Of a stretch of 64,000 bases of DNA, positions 48,186 to 63,369 are shown in pieces. The stretch's first letter is position 1. Each line of letters opens with the position of its first letter. Where the stretch lies: positions 1 to 64,000 of the forward strand of contig BQIV01000016.1 in NCBI GenBank assembly GCA_021604005.1, given 5' to 3'. Both the position numbers and the translations under genes were made by a program. Under the pieces are notes generated by a model. The model ran no database searches. It saw only the letters and a list, made by a program, of their open reading frames with translations, and was not told the DNA's origin. Source of the DNA: Nitrospirales bacterium. GTDB lineage: Bacteria; Nitrospirota; Nitrospiria; Nitrospirales; UBA8639.

Positions 48186-49772
48186 TCAAGGTCGAGGTTT
48201 CTGGGTGAGAGGCAGAATAATAGAAAAAGTCGTTCCCTTCCCTTCTTCACTTTCTACCTTGATCTGACCATGATGAGCATCGATGGCGTCTTTCACGATT
48301 TTTGTCCCGAGTCCGGTTCCGCCGACTTTAGTGCTAATGGCATTCTGGGTAAATAATCGATCTCGGATGTCTGAAGGCATGCCCTTTCCGGTATCCGCGA
48401 CAACTAATTCAAGCATTCCCGTTTCAAGGTGAGCTTGCCCACGTATCGTCACTGAACCACCGGAAGGGACTTCCGGTATCGCATTACCTGTGAGGTTATA
48501 GAGTGCTGCAAATAATCGGCGTTCATCAGCTTCAATAATCGGGAGTGTGTCCAGCCCTTTCGCGTACAAAGCCACCTCCTTTTCTTTGGCAGAGATCTGA
48601 AGTGATTTAAATACACCTTTGACAATTTCTTGTACTGTACATGGAGTAAAATTTGGTTCGCTTGTGACGCCTTTGACGGCATCAGCAATCTCGCGCACCC
48701 GGTCTTGAATGCGTCGCGCATTATTCGTGATCATTTCTGTCAATTCAGTGCACGTCGTCTTGCAATGTGTCCAGACCTTGGCATCATCCTTCATGACGGC
48801 AGCAAACACGTCCTTGAGTTCATCCTCAAGGAGACTTGTCCCTGTCAATACTGGCATGAGCATATTTTTAATATCATGTCCAACATTACCTAAGACGCGC
48901 GAGACCTCAGCCAATTTGGCTGCCTCAAGGAGTTGAGCCGCAATGCGTTTCTGTTCCGTCATGTCCTGGAAGGTCACCACTGCTCCCCTCAACTTCCCCT
49001 GTTCATCTCGCAATGGTGTGCTGCAATATTGGGCTGAGAAGTGACTTCCATCTTTTCGCCAAAAGATTTCGTCGGCTCCCATGTGTACTCGTCCGTCTTT
49101 ATAAGCCCCATAGATGGGACATTGTTCATCAGGGTATGGACATCCATCTTCTTTCGTATGATGCCATAGCGAATGGCTTGGCTGTCCGAGCAGTTCATCA
49201 GTCTCATATCCCAGCATCGATTTAGCCGCAGGGTTCACAAATGTATGGCAACCTTCCAAGTCTAATCCTAGAATGCCTTCGCCTGCAGAGTTCAAAATGT
49301 ACTCATTTTGTCGACGAAGCTCCATGATGGTACGTTCGGCCTTTTTGCGCTCAGAAATATCACGAAACGTCACGACAGCCCCTGCAAGATTACCGAATTC
49401 ATCCGTGATAGGAGTGCTTGTGTACTCGGCTGGGAAGGCTGTGCCATCTTTTCGCCAGAACACTTCAGTATCACCATGATGAATGCGACCGTCTTTGTAG
49501 GCCCCATAGATGGGACAGTCTGTTGCCGGATAGGGTGATCCATCAGCGTGAGAGTGATGCCACAATCCATGGCTGGGCCGACCCAAGAGTTCATCGGCCG
49601 TGTATCCCAGCATCTGTGCTGCGGCAGGATTCACGAAGGTATGCCGTCCTTCCAAATCAAGACCAAAAATCCCTTCAGCCGCAGCCTGTAAGAGCAGACG
49701 ATGTATCTCATCTGCCGTGGATCGTACAAAGGGGGAAGAGTCCTGACTCTCTTTCTGCATGTCCGTGTTCAT
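48186..49772 (-). CDS. PAS-PAS sensor histidine kinase
   Basis: This 528-residue cytosolic kinase has two similar PAS domains in tandem (about 22-145 and 155-272), both containing LWHH...YP...CPIYGAYKDGR and FWRKDG, evidence of an internal duplication. A kinase core follows with the phosphorylation His at 299 (VGHDIKN) and ATP-binding N, G1 (VADTGKGM) and G2 (GGTGLGTKI) boxes. There is no membrane segment and no response regulator nearby, so its partner is elsewhere. It follows the CBS protein by 25 bp, probably in one transcript. Confidence 0.9.
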   Translation of the reverse strand: MNTDMQKESQDSSPFVRSTADEIHRLLLQAAAEGIFGLDLEGRHTFVNPAAAQMLGYTADELLGRPSHGLWHHSHADGSPYPATDCPIYGAYKDGRIHHGDTEVFWRKDGTAFPAEYTSTPITDEFGNLAGAVVTFRDISERKKAERTIMELRRQNEYILNSAGEGILGLDLEGCHTFVNPAAKSMLGYETDELLGQPSHSLWHHTKEDGCPYPDEQCPIYGAYKDGRVHMGADEIFWRKDGSHFSAQYCSTPLRDEQGKLRGAVVTFQDMTEQKRIAAQLLEAAKLAEVSRVLGNVGHDIKNMLMPVLTGTSLLEDELKDVFAAVMKDDAKVWTHCKTTCTELTEMITNNARRIQDRVREIADAVKGVTSEPNFTPCTVQEIVKGVFKSLQISAKEKEVALYAKGLDTLPIIEADERRLFAALYNLTGNAIPEVPSGGSVTIRGQAHLETGMLELVVADTGKGMPSDIRDRLFTQNAISTKVGGTGLGTKIVKDAIDAHHGQIKVESEEGKGTTFSIILPLTQKPRP

Positions 49773-49797: not shown

Positions 49798-50229
49798 TCA
49801 GCTTGTCCATTCCAACCCTAAGCCTGATTTCACCCAAGCCTGAAGAAGGTCATGCCGTGTGATACATCCAATCACCACGCCATCCTTTTCAACGGGAAGG
49901 TTCAAAAATCGGCTTTTCTCCATAATTTTCACGGCTTCACCAATCGTCGTGTAGGCTGTAACCGGTACACGGTCCTTTGCCATCAGATCTTCAGCTGTCA
50001 TCTGGTTGAGGTCCTTACCATCTGCTAGGGCCTGCAACAAATTAAATTCGCTGATGAACCCAACAAATGTTCCGTTCCGATCCACGACTGGAGCCCCAGG
50101 CGTGTGGCCAGTGAGCAACAACACCGCTATGGCCAAACCATTTTGTTCAGCTTGAAAACGCAGCCTATTGCTTCCGACGATTTCTTCAAGGGTTGCATTG
50201 CCACCGGCGGATATTTTTTCTGAATCCAT
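49798..50229 (-). CDS. CBS-domain pair protein
   Basis: This 143-residue protein consists of two CBS domains (about 15-70 and 80-140) that usually bind adenine nucleotides and regulate partner proteins. Recognisable pieces are VVDRNGTFVGFISEFNLLQAL and LPVEKDGVVIGCITRHDLLQAW. It is encoded just before the PAS histidine kinase and may feed energy status into that kinase; this is inferred from position. Confidence 0.88.
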   Translation of the reverse strand: MDSEKISAGGNATLEEIVGSNRLRFQAEQNGLAIAVLLLTGHTPGAPVVDRNGTFVGFISEFNLLQALADGKDLNQMTAEDLMAKDRVPVTAYTTIGEAVKIMEKSRFLNLPVEKDGVVIGCITRHDLLQAWVKSGLGLEWTS

Positions 50230-50352: not shown

Positions 50353-51042
50353 TCATGACTTCGTGAGATTTCTAATATAAGCAAGAATGTCCTCCATTTC
50401 TTGTTTTGACAGATCGCTCTTCCATGAAGGCATGGCCGTGCCCGGCCGACCGTTGCGAATAGTGTTGAGGAGAATCGTATCTGACTTGTTGCCGGTAGCC
50501 GTCAGGTCTGCTGCCGGGGGAATGAGCGCCTGGCCGATTGGACCGTCGCCTTTGCCCGTTTGGCCGTGACAGTTGAGGCAGTATGTGTTGTAGATTGCCT
50601 TCCCTTTTTCAGGACTTCCACTCTCCCTAGTCGGGATATGTGCCAAACCCGTAAATTTTTTAGCCTCTGGTATAGGTTGAATGGTATTCTGACTCACCAA
50701 ATACTCAGCTAGGGGCGAAATGTGTTCATCCGGAATCGGACACCCAAAGGTGTGTTTCATTTTCTTGATAATTTCCGTCCAACGTTCATGTGAATGTGGA
50801 GGTTGCGTGTAGATATATTCTGCAGAGTGGCAGATGAGACAATAACTACTGGCAATCGCGCTTCCCGGACCCTGCTGAAAAGAGATTGGATCGGCAGGCA
50901 CGCTCAGTGTATCTGAGGCCTCCATCGATTGCGCACCGGACGGCTGTCCCACCATAAACACGCCAAGCATGAACAGGCCCACACACAGGAACACGCTGAA
51001 CCAGCCGACACTTCGCTTTATGATATTCCCGTTACGTCGCAT
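50353..51042 (-). CDS. sorB: dihaem cytochrome c, SorB-like subunit of sulfite dehydrogenase
   Basis: This protein of 229 residues has an N-terminal membrane/signal segment (about 11-34) and two haem c sites: CLICH (68-72) and CLNCH (155-159). The first sits in a SorB-like domain (SSYCLICHSAEYIYTQPPHSHERW); the second in a small class I cytochrome domain ending GRPGTAMPSWKSDLSKQEMEDILAYIRNL. It would accept electrons from SorA and pass them to the respiratory chain. Its start overlaps the sorA stop by 11 bp, so the two are coupled. Confidence 0.85.
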   Translation of the reverse strand: MRRNGNIIKRSVGWFSVFLCVGLFMLGVFMVGQPSGAQSMEASDTLSVPADPISFQQGPGSAIASSYCLICHSAEYIYTQPPHSHERWTEIIKKMKHTFGCPIPDEHISPLAEYLVSQNTIQPIPEAKKFTGLAHIPTRESGSPEKGKAIYNTYCLNCHGQTGKGDGPIGQALIPPAADLTATGNKSDTILLNTIRNGRPGTAMPSWKSDLSKQEMEDILAYIRNLTKS

Positions 51043-52276
51043 GAATATGCACCGTTTCGACGACATTTCGAAGATATCCACTTGGATTCCAGCGAGCGCT
51101 GAAACGTTGGGGTTCGCCAATGCGATTCACGGCTAGTGATTGCAGCATATAGGTTCGACCGGAAACCGGCGTGAATTGCACTTCCCACGGCCGGAAACTA
51201 AAGTCGCCATAGTCCTGTCCTAAGCTGGCAGCCTGCCATTGGCGGCCTCCATCCACTGAGAAGAGCACTCGATCGATGCCATACCCTTGGTCAAAGGCAA
51301 TGCCTTTCACGGTTAAGGGCGTTCCGCCTACCACCGTTCCGCTATCTTGAACATTGGTGATAAAAGAGCGGACGGTCATTTTCCCTATTGGAACGGATCG
51401 GACAATCTTCTCCCCAGGCTGGACGCATGCGCAGGGATCTGCCGGCAACCGATAGGCCTTGGCCATCCAAAACTGTTGATCGTGCTTGTTGAGCACTTCA
51501 ATATCATTCAACATTTTGACCCAATAGGTGGCAAACCAGCCCGGCACAACCAGCCGAAGTGGAAACCCGTTCAACCAGGGAAGTGGCTCTCCATTCATGG
51601 AATGGGCCACCACCACGGTCTCTTGAACGGCATCCTCTAGATTCAGCGATTTTCGAAAGTCCGGCGTGCCATCAGCGATTGGTTGATCAAGACCATCAAA
51701 CCGAACCTGGAGGCCATCATCATTGAGCCCGGCTTTGGCGAGTAAATCCCGCAATCGAACGCCCGTCCACTTGGCATTGCCCATCGCGCCATTTCCCCAC
51801 TGCCCGCCAGGGACACGCGGGTCAAAAAACCCCCGGCTGTTTCCTCCGCATTGGCACACGGCGGCAACCTCAACTTGCTCGAAATCCCGTTTTAACTCCG
51901 CCAAATTCAAAGACAACGGTTGAGTAACTCGTCCCCGAATCTTCAGACGAAACGTGTTCATATCGATCTGCGAAGGAATGTTGGCCAGATGCCATCGAAC
52001 AAAGAAGGCATCATTGGGCGTAAAAATATTCTCATCAAATAGATGAAACGGGGTTTCCAATTGTGGTGGCCTCGTGGTCATGACCATCAGCGGCCGTTTT
52101 TGCGGGAAGGCGACCAATGGACGGCGACCCCGCTCGAACGGCAAATCCACTTTCGGTGCATTCTCAGCCCAAAGCACTCCTGGCTTCACGAAACTTGCAG
52201 CCCCAAGTGCCAGACTCGCTGATAAAAAACGTCGACGAGTCAATTCAGAATCTTTTTCGGTCCTTGTCTTCTTCAT
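51032..52276 (-). CDS. sorA: sulfite dehydrogenase, molybdenum subunit SorA-like
   Basis: This sulfite-oxidase-family molybdoenzyme of 414 residues is exported folded through the Tat system: twin-arginine signal TRRRFLSASLALG at about 13-25. The molybdenum-ligand Cys is at 143 in CQCGGNSR; an oxidoreductase Mo-binding domain (about 60-270) is followed by the Mo-co dimerisation domain. It lacks its own haem b domain, so electrons leave through the adjacent SorB cytochrome. Sulfite oxidation to sulfate is the likely reaction; related enzymes act on other oxyanions or S-oxides. The start at 52276 follows AAGGAAC. Confidence 0.88.
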   Translation of the reverse strand: MKKTRTEKDSELTRRRFLSASLALGAASFVKPGVLWAENAPKVDLPFERGRRPLVAFPQKRPLMVMTTRPPQLETPFHLFDENIFTPNDAFFVRWHLANIPSQIDMNTFRLKIRGRVTQPLSLNLAELKRDFEQVEVAAVCQCGGNSRGFFDPRVPGGQWGNGAMGNAKWTGVRLRDLLAKAGLNDDGLQVRFDGLDQPIADGTPDFRKSLNLEDAVQETVVVAHSMNGEPLPWLNGFPLRLVVPGWFATYWVKMLNDIEVLNKHDQQFWMAKAYRLPADPCACVQPGEKIVRSVPIGKMTVRSFITNVQDSGTVVGGTPLTVKGIAFDQGYGIDRVLFSVDGGRQWQAASLGQDYGDFSFRPWEVQFTPVSGRTYMLQSLAVNRIGEPQRFSARWNPSGYLRNVVETVHIHAT

Positions 52277-52320
52277 GGCGTGTTCCTTGTAGACGTAGGC
52301 TGATTCCGTCTCTTCAGTTC

Positions 52321-53751
52321 CTATTTCGCCAAGGTCCGGATATAGTGAATCATCTGCCATATTTGATTATCCGGCATGCCTGGAAATGCCATCATCCCCG
52401 TTCCGGGCGAGCCATTCTTTATGATCCAGAACATTTGTCCATCGGAAATGTCGGTCATCGTCTCTCCACAGGTAAGGTTGCGTGGGTGTGGATTGAGCGC
52501 AGCGCCCATGGGCCCGTTTCCGTCGCCTTTGTCTCCATGGCATTGTTTGCAGGCCAAGGGCTGCGCCGTTTCGTGAAACAGTTTTTTGCCAGCTTTGATA
52601 TTTTCCGGTGAATTCGGTAAGGGGTTGGTCAGCTTTCGAAATTTTCCAGGGGCGCGTTTCGTGTTGCGCGGTTGAGGACAGACACCTGACGATCCTGAGT
52701 TCGTGGCCGCCGAGGCGACATGAGCTCCACCTGTAAATGTGGCTTTCAAATAGGCAATTACATCGGCGACACCCTGTTTCCCGCCAATCGTCAAACCCCA
52801 ATAGGGCATCAAGGGAGATTTGCCGACACCTTTCCCTCCGTAATAAATCACGTTATAGAGATAATCGAGCGGAATTTTGTCAAAGGGAATATTGGCATGA
52901 ACGGCAGGTTTGGGTTCCAGCCCCGACGCCGCCGGGCCATCGCCTTTTCCGTCGGCTCCATGACATTGCGCACAGTACTCTTTGTATATCTGCGCTCCGT
53001 TTTCGACACGAGGATGGTCAAATTCCGCGCTTTTCCAAGGTTCATAAAAGGGAAAGTCCTCGACGCCGCGTGTCGCAATAAACCCGGTGACATACCGGAG
53101 GCCGAGCTCACTCACATCGCCCACAAATTCCCCGCTGTGCGGGACGAAGTCCGGGGGATTGGAGTTAAAGCGATAGATCCAGTCGGCTTTGAGTCTTTGG
53201 CCCGAATTAAAAAACGATGTGCTTTGCGGACCGCCGGTCTGTTTCCCATCCACCATGATCTGGTGACAGCCGATGCATGAATGCTGCTTGAAGATTTCCT
53301 CCCCAAACTTCGCTTCTTGTTTGCTAAACGTGGTCATATCAATGGGGTTGTTCTTGACGCGCGGGTCTTGGAGGTGTGTCTCGATGTATTCAGCTAGCGC
53401 TTGGGCTTCTTCGTCAGGCACGGTCATGTGAGGTGTTGGCTCTTGGCTCTGATCCCATCGATATGACTTCTGGTACATCGTCGGCTCTTTGCCTGTTAAC
53501 CAATCGATCATCCAATTTTTTTGAAACTTGCTGCCAGCCCACATGAGATCCGGGGCTTTTAAGGCAAACCGGCTTTCGGCTTGCCCTTCGATTTTGTGGC
53601 ATGTTGAACAGACGGTGGTCATCATCTTTTCAGCCTGCTGTTGGTTTGCGGCCCACACGGGGATCACGCTCCACATGATGAAGAGCATGCTGCCAATACC
53701 CAATCGAGTAGTGCGTACAAATGTATGAGTGAACAATGACAGAATATACAT
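52321..53751 (-). CDS. periplasmic tetrahaem cytochrome c
   Basis: This 476-residue exported protein has four haem c sites: CSTCH (48-52), CIGCH (159-163), CAQCH (260-264) and CKQCH (401-405), each in its own class I-like domain. A signal peptide covers about 1-34. The last domain (GETMTDISDGQMFWIIKNGSPGTGMMAFPGMP) resembles the monohaem cytochrome at 57328. It lies directly upstream of sorA on the same strand (44-bp gap), so it probably links SorAB to a terminal acceptor. Confidence 0.9.
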   Translation of the reverse strand: MYILSLFTHTFVRTTRLGIGSMLFIMWSVIPVWAANQQQAEKMMTTVCSTCHKIEGQAESRFALKAPDLMWAGSKFQKNWMIDWLTGKEPTMYQKSYRWDQSQEPTPHMTVPDEEAQALAEYIETHLQDPRVKNNPIDMTTFSKQEAKFGEEIFKQHSCIGCHQIMVDGKQTGGPQSTSFFNSGQRLKADWIYRFNSNPPDFVPHSGEFVGDVSELGLRYVTGFIATRGVEDFPFYEPWKSAEFDHPRVENGAQIYKEYCAQCHGADGKGDGPAASGLEPKPAVHANIPFDKIPLDYLYNVIYYGGKGVGKSPLMPYWGLTIGGKQGVADVIAYLKATFTGGAHVASAATNSGSSGVCPQPRNTKRAPGKFRKLTNPLPNSPENIKAGKKLFHETAQPLACKQCHGDKGDGNGPMGAALNPHPRNLTCGETMTDISDGQMFWIIKNGSPGTGMMAFPGMPDNQIWQMIHYIRTLAK

Positions 53752-55266: not shown

Positions 55267-55365
55267 GATGCTCTCCTTCTTCTATTTATGTCGTGTGCGT
55301 CGATATTCGTTCGTTACAATCGTTGAATAGAGCCGGTTCCCTATTCATATTGTTTACAGGCATCA

Positions 55366-55379
55366 GCAAAAGCGATACC
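55366..55379 (-). promoter_or_regulatory. sigma-54 promoter candidate (P2) for the MBL-rhodanese/Sor genes
   Basis: Read on the minus strand, GG (55379-55378) and GC (55367-55366) are exactly 10 bp apart within AGGTATCGCTTTTGCT. The -12 half TTGCT is consensus; the -24 half is partial. The distance to the start codon at 55266 is about 100 bp. A GTTAA-type repeat cluster lies about 97-143 bp upstream, as for P1. Confidence 0.5.
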
Positions 55380-55460
55380 TAAAAAATGCACAATTGAAGA
55401 ATGCTGATTTTTTAAACAGTTACGTTCGTCTTGCTTCTTTCGCGTGAAGCCTAGAAGCCA

Positions 55461-55510
55461 AACGTTAAGGGCAAGCGTTAACGGCTGACTTAACACGTAA
55501 ACGAAAAACG
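55461..55510. promoter_or_regulatory. putative enhancer (UAS) with GTTAA repeats, copy 2
   Basis: GTTAAG (55464), GTTAAC (55477) and CTTAAC (55489) are spaced 12-13 bp apart, followed by CGAAAAACG. The same words, including CGAAAAACG, occur in the cluster at 59438-59473. I infer a binding site for the sigma-54 activator encoded at 59556-60941. The rest of the gap 55267-55853 shows no gene I would support; a 92-residue minus-strand frame there overlaps these sites. Confidence 0.5.
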
Positions 55511-57327: not shown

Positions 57328-57759
57328 TTAGGGGTTGCCAAACGACCGCACATACAGCAACACATGCCAGGCTTCCTCTTCCGTGAGCACCAATGGAACA
57401 AACGACGCCATATCTGTCCCGGGACTTCCGTTTTTTAAAATCCAAAACAGTTCGCCGTCGGTACGCGCAGCTTGCCAGGTGTTGTCTGTAAAATTTCTGG
57501 GAAGCTTTCCGCGAAGCCCAGGAATATTTCCGAGGCCTTTCCCATCTTTGCCGTGGCAGGTGACACAAAACGCTTTGCCATGAAAAATATTTTTTCCGAT
57601 CTCAACATTTTCAGGCGTGGACAAAACCGGGTTTTCCCATGATTTTGCTTCTTCGATCTGATCAGCCGGTACTCTGGGTTTGAGCACGGACGGATCGGCC
57701 GCCCAGGCCATACCACACATCACAAGTCCAATGGCCATAGCTTGCCCTACTCGTTTCAC
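57328..57759 (-). CDS. monohaem class I cytochrome c
   Basis: This 143-residue periplasmic cytochrome has one haem site CVTCH (65-69) and the downstream GELFWILKNGSPGTDMASFVPLVLTEEEAWHVLLYVRSF segment supplying the Met ligand. GTG 57759 is chosen as start because a strong GAGGAGG precedes it; an ATG-type start further upstream (57819) would run through the ribosome-binding site. It resembles the last domain of the tetrahaem cytochrome at 52321, suggesting that they share a redox partner. Confidence 0.85.
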   Translation of the reverse strand: MKRVGQAMAIGLVMCGMAWAADPSVLKPRVPADQIEEAKSWENPVLSTPENVEIGKNIFHGKAFCVTCHGKDGKGLGNIPGLRGKLPRNFTDNTWQAARTDGELFWILKNGSPGTDMASFVPLVLTEEEAWHVLLYVRSFGNP

Positions 57760-57805
57760 AACACGAATCCTCCTCACATATGACTGCGGGTTTTTGTTGA
57801 AGTGC

Positions 57806-57830
57806 GAAGGGAGGCACAATGCCTCCCTTC
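57806..57830 (-). terminator. intercistronic hairpin in the P1 operon
   Basis: GAAGGGAGGCA (57806-57816) and TGCCTCCCTTC (57820-57830) are perfect 11-bp complements with a 3-nt loop, between the DUF1264 gene and the cytochrome gene. No T-run follows, so it is more likely an RNA-processing or attenuation point than a full terminator. Confidence 0.55.
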
Positions 57831-57844
57831 AGTGATGATGCAGA

Positions 57845-58363
57845 TTATTTGGGCTGATTGAATATATGCCCTAGAGATTGTGGATACGTCACTGTCCCGT
57901 CAGGAAACTCTTTGCCCTTCTGCCACAGATGATAAATGACGCCATCGGTCTTGGAAGCAAATTCAACGATTTCTTTCACTTTGTTTTCGTCCGCAATGTC
58001 GAGTACTTGCACGCGTCCTGTTTCGATTTCCTGTTTGTGATCATGAAAATATCGATGCCACTGGATCAACGGAAGTTTTCGGGAAAGATCTTTCGCGACA
58101 AAATATTCGATGGCGACTAATGGGGCTTTGGCATCGGTGGTTTCAAACAACAGGCATTGTAAGATCTTGTCGGAGATGCCTTTGCAATAGTGATGATAGG
58201 GGCCGCCTGGAGTTCCATCCGGCATCAGATGAGGCGCCTGTACATGAATATCATACCCCTTTGCAGGGCCAGGTTCACCGCTAAGTGCGGGTGTTGTCAT
58301 ACAGCCCATGGCCAAAAAACTGAACGCACAGACAAACATGAACGATCGAATAGAACGATGCAT
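57845..58363 (-). CDS. DUF1264-family lipoprotein
   Basis: This 172-residue protein has a lipobox ending AMGC (Cys about 21) and the DUF1264 pattern: GYDIHVQAPHLMPDGTPGGPYHHYCKGISDKILQCLLFE, then AIEYFVAKDLSRKLPLIQWHRYFHDHKQEIETGRVQVL. The family occurs in plants (oil-body-associated proteins) and some bacteria; its biochemical function is unknown. Conserved His/Cys/Tyr clusters could bind a metal or haem. AAAGGAGG sets the start. Confidence 0.8.
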   Translation of the reverse strand: MHRSIRSFMFVCAFSFLAMGCMTTPALSGEPGPAKGYDIHVQAPHLMPDGTPGGPYHHYCKGISDKILQCLLFETTDAKAPLVAIEYFVAKDLSRKLPLIQWHRYFHDHKQEIETGRVQVLDIADENKVKEIVEFASKTDGVIYHLWQKGKEFPDGTVTYPQSLGHIFNQPK

Positions 58364-58456
58364 AGCAACCTCCTTTAGATGATACATGAAACCTCTAAGG
58401 ACTTCGGGTCTCTGTGTACGAGTATAAATGTTTTGATCGGCGTTCCCAAATGACCA

Positions 58457-58645
58457 TTACGCCACATTTTCTTTTTTCGACGTCACAGGCTTGGTTTTGT
58501 CCTCGGTTAGCCGTTTTTGCATAATCAATGGGTCAATTGATGATCCGCAATTCAGGCAACGCCAAATTGGGAGGTCAAAGATTGCCTCGTCGGGTCCGTA
58601 TATTTGGTCAAATACCATTAAGCCTTCGCATCGTGTGCATTTCAT
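58457..58645 (-). CDS. small zinc-ribbon protein
   Basis: This 62-residue protein has CTRC at 3-6 and CLNC at about 30-33, a two-knuckle zinc ribbon, then a basic tail. It has no signal and is probably cytosolic. AAGGAGG precedes the ATG. It lies between the rhodanese and DUF1264 genes of the same operon. Its role is unknown; zinc-ribbon proteins of this size often modulate RNA polymerase or act as metal chaperones. Confidence 0.8.
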   Translation of the reverse strand: MKCTRCEGLMVFDQIYGPDEAIFDLPIWRCLNCGSSIDPLIMQKRLTEDKTKPVTSKKENVA

Positions 58646-59342: not shown

Positions 59343-59358
59343 AGCAATGCACATGCCA
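59343..59358 (-). promoter_or_regulatory. sigma-54 promoter (P1), near consensus
   Basis: On the minus strand 59358-59343 reads TGGCATGTGCATTGCT against the consensus TGGCACGNNNNTTGCW: only one of the conserved bases differs, with exact GG-N10-GC spacing. It lies about 55 bp upstream of the YgaP-like gene. The GTTAAC cluster is 94-129 bp further upstream, and the activator gene lies immediately beyond. Confidence 0.8.
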
Positions 59359-59437: not shown

Positions 59438-59473
59438 GTTAACCGAAAAACGTTAACCTGTTAACTTAACGTT
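59438..59473. promoter_or_regulatory. putative enhancer (UAS) with GTTAAC repeats, copy 1
   Basis: Three GTTAAC palindromes (59438, 59452, 59460) and an adjoining TTAACGTT lie within 36 bp, with CGAAAAACG between the first two. GTTAAC is itself palindromic, as expected for a dimeric Fis-type helix-turn-helix. Position between the P1 promoter and the activator gene makes it the likely binding site. Confidence 0.65.
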
Positions 59474-59555: not shown

Positions 59556-60941
59556 TTAACTCACGTTGCTCGTGATCCCAAGTTTTTGGAGTTTTTTCCA
59601 GAGCGTGACTCGGCTCATACCGAGTAATTTGGCAGCTTCGAGTTTGCGGCCGTTGGTTTGGTGAAGTGCTGAAAGGATTCGATCTCGTTCTTGATCAGGT
59701 TCTGCTGAGAGAACTGGAGAGGGTGATGCCGGCGAAGGGCTGCAGTCAGGTAGTCGAATTTCAGATGGAAGATCAAGCAGCGTCAAACAATCGTTTTCAA
59801 CGGTCACAAAGGCATGTTCAATGGCATTGCGTAATTCTCGCACATTACCGGGCCAGGGATATTTAATGAGATGCTGCATGGCATTTTGTGCCATGTCGGT
59901 AACGGAACGCTGATACACTGTTGCGTACTCCCCGATGAAGTGGTTCACCAATAGCGGAATGTCTTCCCGGCGCTCTCGCAGGGGTGGCATGGTAATCTCA
60001 AACACGCGAATGCGGTAGTAAAAATCTTCACGTATGTCACCGGAGGCCAGGGCTTTTTTCAATTCCTTGTTGGTTGCGGTAATGAGTCGCACGTTAATTT
60101 TGATCGCACGCTCATCGCCCACACGTCGGATTTCCCCTTCTTGTAAGACGCGAAGGAGTTTGAGTTGAAGCAGCGGGCTGGTATCGCCGATTTCATCTAA
60201 AAATAAGGTGCCGCCATCCGCAGCTTGAAACACGCCGACTTTATCCCGAATGGCGCCGGTAAAGGCCCCTTTGACATGCCCGAAGAGTTCGCTTTCGAGT
60301 AGTGTCTCGGGAATAGCTGAACAGTTAATCGCAAAAAACGGCTGATTTTTTCGACTGCTGAGTGCATGAATGGCTCGAGCCGCCAGTTCCTTTCCCGTCC
60401 CTGATTCTCCTGTGACCAGGACTGACACATCGCTTTGTGCCGCAAGACGCAGTCGGCGAAACACCTCCTGCATGACTTGACTCTTCCCGACAAGTTGTTG
60501 GAAGGCGTCACGCGACTTGGCTTGTTCCTCAAGGACCGCGATCTTTTCATTACTCAAAATAAATGCGGTTAAATCTGTAAATGTTCCGATTGCACCTATA
60601 ACTGTGCCTTGCTTATCGCGAATGACGGAGACATTCCCATACAGGTAGAGTTCGCGACCGTCTTTTCCGAGTACTTTACATTCTTGATTACAGATGCCCC
60701 AAGGATAGGGTGTCGGGTTATCTAAAAATTCTGTGAGTTTGCTGAAGCCTTTGCACGTTTGACCTTCCAGGACATGACAGGGTTGCCCCACGACATCGTG
60801 GCTGGAGTATCCGGTAATCCGTGCTGCTCCTGCGCTCCAGGCGACGATGTGACCTCGGGCGTCAACCGTAAATACGCCATCGGCCATGACATCCACCATG
60901 TTGCTTAAGATGCCAGGGTTTTTTCTAAAATCCAGTTCCAT
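59556..60941 (-). CDS. sigma-54-dependent activator with Cys-rich PAS domain
   Basis: This 461-residue enhancer-binding protein has a PAS domain (about 10-125), AAA+ ATPase (about 150-380; Walker A GESGTGKE 178-185, GAFTGA 225-230, Walker B TLFLDEIGD) and a Fis-type helix-turn-helix (about 420-458, KLEAAKLLGMSRVTLWKKLQKL). There is no receiver domain. The PAS domain holds four cysteines (55, 63, 84, 88), so it may sense redox state, a metal/Fe-S centre or a sulfur species. It is transcribed towards P1 and its UAS and is the best candidate regulator of the sulfur genes downstream. Confidence 0.9.
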   Translation of the reverse strand: MELDFRKNPGILSNMVDVMADGVFTVDARGHIVAWSAGAARITGYSSHDVVGQPCHVLEGQTCKGFSKLTEFLDNPTPYPWGICNQECKVLGKDGRELYLYGNVSVIRDKQGTVIGAIGTFTDLTAFILSNEKIAVLEEQAKSRDAFQQLVGKSQVMQEVFRRLRLAAQSDVSVLVTGESGTGKELAARAIHALSSRKNQPFFAINCSAIPETLLESELFGHVKGAFTGAIRDKVGVFQAADGGTLFLDEIGDTSPLLQLKLLRVLQEGEIRRVGDERAIKINVRLITATNKELKKALASGDIREDFYYRIRVFEITMPPLRERREDIPLLVNHFIGEYATVYQRSVTDMAQNAMQHLIKYPWPGNVRELRNAIEHAFVTVENDCLTLLDLPSEIRLPDCSPSPASPSPVLSAEPDQERDRILSALHQTNGRKLEAAKLLGMSRVTLWKKLQKLGITSNVS

Positions 60942-61094: not shown

Positions 61095-62822
61095 CTATTT
61101 GGCCGCGACTAGCGATTGGAAGCTCGGGTCGGTGTTGACAAACCCCTTGAGGGTATCGTTATGGAGCATGTAGTCCCAGGCTTCCGGCGTAGCTCCGGGG
61201 ACTTGATCAAACCAGTCACGGGCTTGCGTTAAGAGGTCGACCATGGATTTTTTGTCGAGTGGAACACGAAACGCCAAGCTGTATGCCATGGCATATGTTG
61301 CCGTAAACTTCTCAAGCGGGTCTTCGGTCAATGCAAGTGCCGTGTTTGCTTCTTTGTACCCTTTGGTTAAGTCGGGATCATCAAAGTGCCGATTCCACGC
61401 TACTTTCCCTATTCGTGACCATGCTAATTCCAGTAGTAATTTAGCCCGTAGTTCCTTCTGATCTTCAGGAATCTCACTCAATAATTCTTGAGGTGAAGAA
61501 ATCGAGGCTCGTTGATCATTGGTCCATTGATAGGCAACGCCTAACCGGCGGCGGTTTTCAAAGTCACCAGGTTGAAGGGACGACAAGACTTCCATGACTG
61601 GAATCATCCGATATAAATAGTCCGCTGCCTGGGGTTCGGTTTTCCCGCCCATTCCCATATCAAGGGATAAATCCATACGATCGGTTTGTGATTGAACCGT
61701 CCAGTACAATTCATTAAACCGCTGAGCCAATAACTCCTGCTCGATGTGTATCCCGTGATTCCGTTCTCCGTAATTCAACAATCCGTTATATAAACGGTCT
61801 GCGAACACCTGTAGGGCTTCTTGATATCGTGGATTGACGAGCAATATCCGATTGAGCAGCATTAAAGACTCTTCTTGACTTGAGGCCGTCTTTGCTTGCT
61901 CCAATCCTGTTTTAAGCGCTTCTGGTGCATCTCCAGGTCCCCACCATTCGGTCGAGTGCGGCACAAATCCGCCCGCTTCGATCACAAAAGGAATGGTGGT
62001 GCCATGCGGCCCCTCCATTGGAATATCTAAAACCGCCTCATTCACAGGGAATCCTAATTCTTTGAGATTCGACAGGACGACCCATTTAACCTTCACGGCC
62101 TTCACAATGCCTTGGGGTTTTTTATACGGCACGGCCCAGTCTTCTGACCCTGACGCATTGGAAACTGGAGACGTCATAGGATTGGGATAAGTAATTCGAA
62201 CAGTCACTAAACTGGTTGGGGTGGCAAGGACAGGGGCATTCTCTTGAACTTTGAACGATGCGTGAGGAATGGGGCCTACACTCAATTTTTCCATGGAAAA
62301 TGGCGCATCAGGCTGTAGAACAGAGATTTGATGCATGACAAAAAACGATGGCGGTAATTGCCGGCTACCCGTTTCAGCGATAAAAAACCGTTGAAAGTCT
62401 TCAAAGTCGACCACGCGTCCTTCCCCTGGCCACACAGCGTCGAGCGCACGATCTTCCTGTTGAATCGCGCGGCTATGTGCGTCTTCGCGGCGTTGAGTGC
62501 ACCAGTCATAGACTGGGTCGGAGTCTGCTGGAAATTGACTGTCAACAAGCTTGCCCTCTTGCTTCATTTTATAGAGGCAGACAAAGTCATGTTGCCCCGC
62601 AACAATTTCATTCCCCTGCGATACCGCTTCGGCGTACTTTTGGACCGTAGTGAACAGGTGGGCTTCGTCCTTGGCCGAGCCGTTCGCCGCCCAGGCTATA
62701 TGGGCTATGCCGGTAAAGCTCATGGCGACCACGTACGCTGCGACCAGGGAATACGGACTACATGTTCGGATTACCTGCCTATGCCATTTCCAAAATGGCT
62801 CTTGGTGTGAAATCTCTTTCAT
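61095..62822 (-). CDS. large exported protein of unknown function
   Basis: I do not recognise this 575-residue protein. It has an N-terminal signal/anchor (about 22-45, LVAAYVVAMSFTGIAHIAWAAN). The middle is beta-rich (about 170-300), and the C-terminal half is helical and suggests TPR-like repeats (LLNRILLVNPRYQEALQVFADRLYNGL; KLLLELAWSRIGKVAWNRHF). It is presumably periplasmic or outer-membrane attached. It precedes the sigma-54 activator on the same strand, but a terminator-like hairpin separates them. Confidence 0.7.
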   Translation of the reverse strand: MKEISHQEPFWKWHRQVIRTCSPYSLVAAYVVAMSFTGIAHIAWAANGSAKDEAHLFTTVQKYAEAVSQGNEIVAGQHDFVCLYKMKQEGKLVDSQFPADSDPVYDWCTQRREDAHSRAIQQEDRALDAVWPGEGRVVDFEDFQRFFIAETGSRQLPPSFFVMHQISVLQPDAPFSMEKLSVGPIPHASFKVQENAPVLATPTSLVTVRITYPNPMTSPVSNASGSEDWAVPYKKPQGIVKAVKVKWVVLSNLKELGFPVNEAVLDIPMEGPHGTTIPFVIEAGGFVPHSTEWWGPGDAPEALKTGLEQAKTASSQEESLMLLNRILLVNPRYQEALQVFADRLYNGLLNYGERNHGIHIEQELLAQRFNELYWTVQSQTDRMDLSLDMGMGGKTEPQAADYLYRMIPVMEVLSSLQPGDFENRRRLGVAYQWTNDQRASISSPQELLSEIPEDQKELRAKLLLELAWSRIGKVAWNRHFDDPDLTKGYKEANTALALTEDPLEKFTATYAMAYSLAFRVPLDKKSMVDLLTQARDWFDQVPGATPEAWDYMLHNDTLKGFVNTDPSFQSLVAAK

Positions 62823-62913: not shown

Positions 62914-63369
62914 TTAATCCTGCACTACTATGGTGCCCTGCATCACATGCCCTGGAAGATCGCAAAGAAAGGGGTAGGTGCCAGTATTTTCAGGCGTAAA
63001 TGAAATTTCCGTTTGTCCGGTTGAGGGGAGCAAGACACGGAGGAGTCCCTCGTTTCCAAATTGAGGGGCGCCATTGCCACTGACGTTGTGGGTCGTTCCG
63101 AGAAACAGCCCGACAGGGACAAACGCATGCAGTTCGGCATCTTTGTTCCGCAAAATTATTCGAGTTTTTTGCCCCCGTTGTAAGGAAATTTTGTCAGGTT
63201 CAAATTTTCGAGTTTTGACATCGATGATGATATCGGTTGGTGGTGGATTCGTTGAGTGCGAATTCGATGCCGATGAAATTCCGCCCCAACCTCCGGTTAT
63301 TGCCAAGGTCAAAATCGTCACCGTTACGAGTAGAAGTCTACAAGGTGTACTCTTTTCAGACATAAGCAT
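62914..63369 (-). CDS. exported cupredoxin (plastocyanin-like)
   Basis: This protein of 151 residues has a signal peptide (about 1-34) and a cupredoxin domain. It begins IIIDVKTRKFEPDKISLQRGQKTRIILRNKDAELHAFVP and ends PFLCDLPGHVMQGTIVVQD. The Cys, His and Met of CDLPGHVMQG plus the His of ELHAF give a type 1 copper site. It is probably a periplasmic electron carrier that could serve NirK or the cytochromes. Starts at 63369 and 63363 both fit the GAGGATT site. It is followed on the same strand by the large exported-protein gene. Confidence 0.85.
   Translation of the reverse strand: MLMSEKSTPCRLLLVTVTILTLAITGGWGGISSASNSHSTNPPPTDIIIDVKTRKFEPDKISLQRGQKTRIILRNKDAELHAFVPVGLFLGTTHNVSGNGAPQFGNEGLLRVLLPSTGQTEISFTPENTGTYPFLCDLPGHVMQGTIVVQD

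Follow-up and report, generated by a model that had tools for sequence, protein, structure and literature searches.

The window analysed here, a stretch of 64,000 nucleotides, is part of a 98-kb contig from a Nitrospirales genome of 4.7 Mb; the closest named relative found was NPIRA04 (MAG). It carries a block of genes lying wholly on the minus strand (Table 1), which begins with genes for a cupredoxin, a 575-aa protein, the sigma-54 activator-like protein Reg, a rhodanese-YgaP-like protein, a CxxC protein, a DUF1264 protein, a c-type cytochrome and two more proteins, and continues with genes for an MBL-rhodanese (mbl), a multi-haem cytochrome c, SorA-like and SorB-like proteins, a CBS-domain protein and a PAS kinase. 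Two sigma-54-type promoters, P1 and P2, precede the rhodanese-YgaP-like gene and mbl, respectively. The genes for the 575-aa protein (61095-62822) and the cupredoxin (62914-63369) precede reg in most family genomes as well; the 575-aa protein had no Pfam or NCBIfam match, and a Pfam search with the 62-aa CxxC protein was likewise without a match.

The product of mbl matches known MBL-rhodanese fusions (PDB 3r2u, which we take to be CstB, and 3tp9) over its full length. For the SorA-like and SorB-like proteins, the best-matching models were those of curated SorA and SorB, with scores just under the cut-offs. As a putative SorAB is encoded downstream of a CstB-like MBL-rhodanese, a route from persulfide through sulfite to sulfate is plausible from the gene content; no SQR was seen in the block.

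Reg combines the features expected of a bEBP: a Sigma54_activat AAA+ domain with an intact GAFTGA loop, and an HTH_8 domain. Four cysteines of its PAS domain (C55, C63, C84, and C88) are kept in 41-42 of 42 orthologs, a pattern that suggests thiol, metal, redox or reactive-sulfur sensing. RpoN is encoded once in the genome (PF04552 match, C44:19808), together with dozens of sigma-54 activator-like bEBP candidates (first-look count 51). Plasmid-borne relatives of Reg (~38% identity), considered as a clue to the inducer, adjoin unrelated genes and were uninformative.

Table 1. Features of the gene block, with positions in the window.
Feature	Position	Strand	Evidence or remark
PAS-PAS histidine kinase, P2 operon	48186..49772	-	orthologs behind own array in several relatives
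CBS-domain protein, P2 operon	49798..50229	-	Pfam
SorB-like cytochrome c subunit, P2 operon	50353..51120	-	NCBIfam NF052246, 76.9 bits (cut-off 93)
SorA-like sulfite dehydrogenase, P2 operon	51032..52360	-	NCBIfam NF052245, full length, 584.6 bits (cut-off 600)
Multi-haem c-type cytochrome, P2 operon	52321..53751	-	Pfam
MBL-double rhodanese (mbl), first gene past P2	53854..55266	-	CstB-like architecture; Pfam; PDB 3tp9 and 3r2u, full length
P2 sigma-54 promoter (-24/-12), AGGTATCGCTTTTGCT	55365..55380	-	PWM 10.5, rank 13; family-typical distance from array
P2 half-site R5 (CTTAAC)	55464..55469	-	90 bp upstream of -24 element
P2 half-site R4 (GTTAACG)	55477..55482	-	103 bp upstream of -24 element
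P2 half-site R2 (GTTAAG)	55489..55494	-	115 bp upstream of -24 element
P2 half-site R1 (GTTTAC, degenerate)	55497..55502	-	123 bp upstream; profile model positions 2-7
CGAAAAACG copy at P2	55502..55510		judged coincidental
c-type cytochrome, P1 operon	57328..57819	-	Pfam
DUF1264 protein, P1 operon	57845..58387	-	Pfam
62-aa CxxC protein, P1 operon	58457..58645	-	kept in relatives
Rhodanese-YgaP-like TM protein, first gene past P1	58697..59287	-	Pfam
P1 sigma-54 promoter, TGGCATGTGCATTGCT	59343..59358	-	top sigma-54 score in window; conserved in family
P1 activator array, GTTAAGTTAACAGGTTAACGTTTTTCGGTTAAC, R2-R5	59438..59470	-	34.5 bits, E 8e-8, profile from 39 other genomes
Reg: PAS-AAA+ (sigma-54 activator, GAFTGA)-Fis HTH	59556..60941	-	Pfam; likely activator

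The candidate P2 promoter and its upstream array

The first-pass annotation had placed a GG-N10-GC element about 100 bp before the MBL-rhodanese start, and we confirmed it there: the site, with a TTGCT -12 box, is followed by the mbl ATG 100 bp further on. Judged by the sigma-54 consensus alone, P2 makes a weak site, ranking 13th in the 64-kb window, where P1 comes first on the same scoring; the matrix used for this ranking was drawn up from general knowledge of the consensus, without training on these genomes. Its -24 half is poor, AGGTAT against TGGCAC. A GG-N10-GC site also lies 114 bp before the mbl ATG in NPIRA04 (G023), with a shifted one in G021. On the minus strand between 55200 and 56000, no sigma-70-like promoter for mbl was found.

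Upstream of P2, the predicted GTTAAG, GTTAAC, and CTTAAC repeats are all present, within an array that ends 84 bp before the sigma-54 site. Its half-sites R1, R2, R4, and R5 stand at offsets of 0/8/20/33, with R3 absent. Taken singly, GTTAAC shows no excess in the window, with 13 copies against an expectation of 10; what is unusual at P2 is the spaced array. The annotation had further described two elements recurring with the same geometry at P1 and P2. This held for the GTTAAC array but not for CGAAAAACG, the supposed second common element, which occurs twice in the window where 0.89 copies are expected by chance. At P1, it forms the spacer between R4 and R5, within the array; the P2 copy falls beyond R1, ~36 bp more distant from the promoter. 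No copy was found in the other reg-downstream regions of relatives. Since it is not conserved and occupies a different place in each array, CGAAAAACG was rejected as a regulatory element and is regarded as a coincidence.

The specificity of the array was examined across the 4.7-Mb genome with a profile derived from 39 genomes other than this one, both window sites being excluded. The top two loci were P1 (34.5 bits, E 8e-8) and P2 (17.3 bits, E 0.023), followed by P1 on the opposite strand and then by a lone phage-like site (C28:32828, 13.5 bits, E 0.35); this last match, which is without a sigma-54 site and lies before terminase-like phage genes, was taken as chance. The pattern STTAAS-N6-7-STTAAS-N7-8-STTAAS likewise matched only P1 and P2 in the 4.7 Mb, and its reversed control gave zero matches in the same genome; as this pattern was picked after both sites were known, the profile is the fairer test. 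A plain matrix from the same 39 genomes gave P2 29.7 bits, while the next position in the window outside the P1 and P2 regions scored -0.7, and no score in 269 Mb of simulated first-order Markov DNA reached that of P2. The whole-genome motif search proposed in the first-pass annotation, run here as profile and pattern, thus returned P1 and P2 as the sole matching loci, and not the many equal GTTAAC clusters elsewhere that would have spoken against a shared activator. GG-N10-GC, a specific array (expected about 80-150 bp upstream) common to P1 and P2, and an RpoN gene, the sequence elements that mark a sigma-54 promoter with a bEBP upstream activating sequence, are all present.

Arrays in related genomes

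Of the 49 family genomes, 41 encode a reg ortholog (at least 70% identity), and in 39 other genomes a sigma-54 site beside reg is preceded by the array. Half-sites in the relatives stand at 0, 8, 13, 20/21, and 33-35, giving a consensus of GTTAAC-nn-GTTAA(G/C)TTAAC-n(n)-GTTAACG-n7-GTTAAC that is near-symmetric about the central G/C. Among 236 Nitrospirales genomes, reg orthologs were found in the family and in G064 only, and strong array matches had the same distribution, with a full array after reg in G064; this co-occurrence is partly trivial, since the main array adjoins reg. Marginal array matches in G050 and G060 (E 0.003-0.01) are at about chance level for this many searches. An array search of the family genomes that lack reg (G002, G004, G005, G007, G008, and G045) was without a match. 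In G039, which has two reg paralogs (L065, G039:C122; L113, G039:C37), one locus has ~4 kb between reg and the array, and the array stays beside the rhodanese gene.

Several relatives carry a second array. One lies before mbl in G021, at the ortholog of P2, where GG-N10-GC is kept too; others lie before cytochrome-sorAB (G027, G016) or before genes for a receiver protein and a PAS kinase (G019, G021, G022, G023, G024, G038, G048), a unit that in G021 continues with CoADR-rhodanese, cytochrome, and sorAB. The sigma-54 site lies 83-95 bp downstream of these extra arrays in nearly all cases (133 in G016). Half-sites of the second site in G038 stand 123/115/110/103/90 bp from the -24 element, against 123/115/103/90 at P2, so that the degenerate R1 of P2 occupies the position of R1 in G038; at the second site of G048 the distances are 122, 109, 102, and 89 bp. 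Because this spacing matches that of the relatives' second sites, the poor-looking -24 box of P2 is credible. The PAS kinase gene of the window has no adjoining receiver-domain gene, whereas its orthologs behind their own array have one in seven relatives.

The P2 operon of the window joins the mbl, cytochrome-sorAB, and PAS-kinase units of these relatives, and in several other genomes mbl, sor, and kinase-type genes are collinear after reg with a single array. An ancestral single block would have split, each piece retaining its own copy of the array. In NPIRA04, the sigma-54 site is kept before an 81%-identical mbl but the array is absent there, indicating that membership of mbl in the regulon differs between species. 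The same genome has an array at G023:C1:210198-210237 (L163, G023:C1:203000-218000), followed on the same strand by genes for two cytochromes, one multi-haem and one small, and for a NiFe hydrogenase, so that the predicted regulon may include a hydrogenase. The small genomes of genus g2 (L103, L104, L106-L112) have no mbl or sor at the locus, yet retain reg and the array together with DUF1264 and cytochrome c, and therefore DUF1264/cytochrome, rather than sulfite oxidation, may have been the regulon's ancestral core.

A predicted Reg regulon and its alternatives

Taken together, the evidence makes P2 very likely a genuine sigma-54 promoter, whose upstream activating sequence would be recognized by Reg, as at P1. 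We propose that Reg would bind the GTTAAC half-sites ~90-125 bp upstream of -24, loop onto RpoN-RNA polymerase at -24/-12, and open the promoter by ATP hydrolysis once its PAS domain senses a signal, probably reactive sulfur or a redox signal. P1 would drive the rhodanese-DUF1264-cytochrome genes, and P2 the genes for MBL-rhodanese (a CstB-like persulfide dioxygenase/sulfurtransferase), cytochrome c, SorAB, and the PAS kinase, each set presumably being co-transcribed. One dedicated switch probably governs both operons: the suggestion in the first-pass annotation that a single activator controls both halves of the block is strongly supported by the genome-wide profile, which matches only P1 and P2, and the comparison adds to it the likely activator, the full array architecture, and the extra regulon members in relatives. 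Single-activator control of such operons seems to extend across the whole family.

The assignment to Reg draws on adjacency and co-occurrence, and the genome encodes other bEBP-like candidates. It could be argued that another Fis-type or global regulator binds the arrays and that reg is a mere neighbour, given the many sigma-54 activator-like candidates and the fact that GTTAAC, an AT-rich palindrome, is open to other proteins. However, 39 other genomes and the distant G064 have the array directly behind reg, the reg-less family genomes named above gave no array match, and the only strong match outside the family is again in G064; we consider this explanation unlikely. That the cluster and the sigma-54-like site arose by chance in AT-rich intergenic DNA would fit the near-expected number of GTTAAC copies and the unremarkable score of the sigma-54 site taken alone, but is highly improbable given an array that is unique in the genome, is matched by an independent profile, is beyond the simulated scores, and has the same geometry in relatives.

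Alternatively, P2 could be a decayed relic, its array brought in by a rearrangement and its promoter no longer working, with mbl-sorAB expressed by read-through from P1 or from another promoter. The weak -24 box, the missing R3, the low consensus rank, and the arrayless mbl of NPIRA04 are what such decay would leave. Against this, the spacing at P2 is exactly family-typical, the orthologous promoter in G021 keeps both array and GG-N10-GC, the region offers no sigma-70-like substitute, and between the P1 operon and the P2 array lie ~400 bp and a single weak terminator-like site. We therefore think it quite improbable that P2 is a relic, and favor a functional P2 under Reg.

The sequence evidence points to a bEBP regulon dedicated to sulfur oxidation in those Nitrospirales that carry SorAB; no description of such a regulon was found in the literature searched. 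More tentatively, and as a possibility rather than an expectation, it may be a lineage-wide regulon of SorAB-bearing nitrite-oxidizing Nitrospirales, in which a PAS-cysteine activator senses reactive sulfur and turns on a persulfide-sulfite-sulfate respiratory branch (CstB-like enzyme, SorAB, and cytochromes), with a NiFe hydrogenase operon in at least one species and with broken-away operons each carrying a copy of the array. SorAB is largely confined to one Nitrospirales lineage, lineage IV/UBA8639 (PMC12342949), a distribution that fits the present family, which is probably that lineage. In nitrite oxidizers, no phenotype has been tied to SorAB or to the hydrogenase of group 3b (PMC10579370). 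With a candidate activator, its binding array, and a list of target operons, the role of SorAB and hydrogenase in these organisms becomes open to a direct test, namely, which compound induces the regulon; they also provide a clean predicted binding-site model for one bEBP over ~40 genomes.

Comparison with known systems

Sites of the NtrC/NifA type are interrupted palindromes ~100 bp upstream of -24. The TTAAC-N7-GTTAA of the array spans 17 bp, as typical bEBP sites do; here, in contrast, four to five overlapping GTTAAC half-sites form one ~40-bp near-symmetric array. The closest functional precedent, by analogy, would be FisR, whose sigma-54 sulfide regulons are described in Cupriavidus pinatubonensis and Acinetobacter baumannii and in which the gene for a Fis-HTH sigma-54 activator similarly adjoins the promoter of persulfide-dioxygenase-type genes (PMC7315123, PMC9774590, PMC12170894). 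FisR senses sulfane sulfur through cysteines of its regulatory domain and drives SQR/PDO genes. Compared with FisR by its description, the candidate sensor here is a PAS domain in which four cysteines are conserved, and the predicted targets, in place of SQR-PDO, are SorAB, c-type cytochromes, DUF1264, and a PAS kinase, spread in some genomes over several unlinked operons. The staphylococcal CstB operon is under the repressor CstR (PMC9774590), whereas the CstB-like gene here would be under a sigma-54 activator. Within the Nitrospirales, sigma-54/NifA-like regulators linked to NXR adjoin the respiratory operon nxrAB in Nitrospira moscoviensis (PMC6606698); reg, likewise the gene of a sigma-54-type regulator next to a predicted respiratory operon, lies beside sulfur genes and is missing from nearly all other Nitrospirales.
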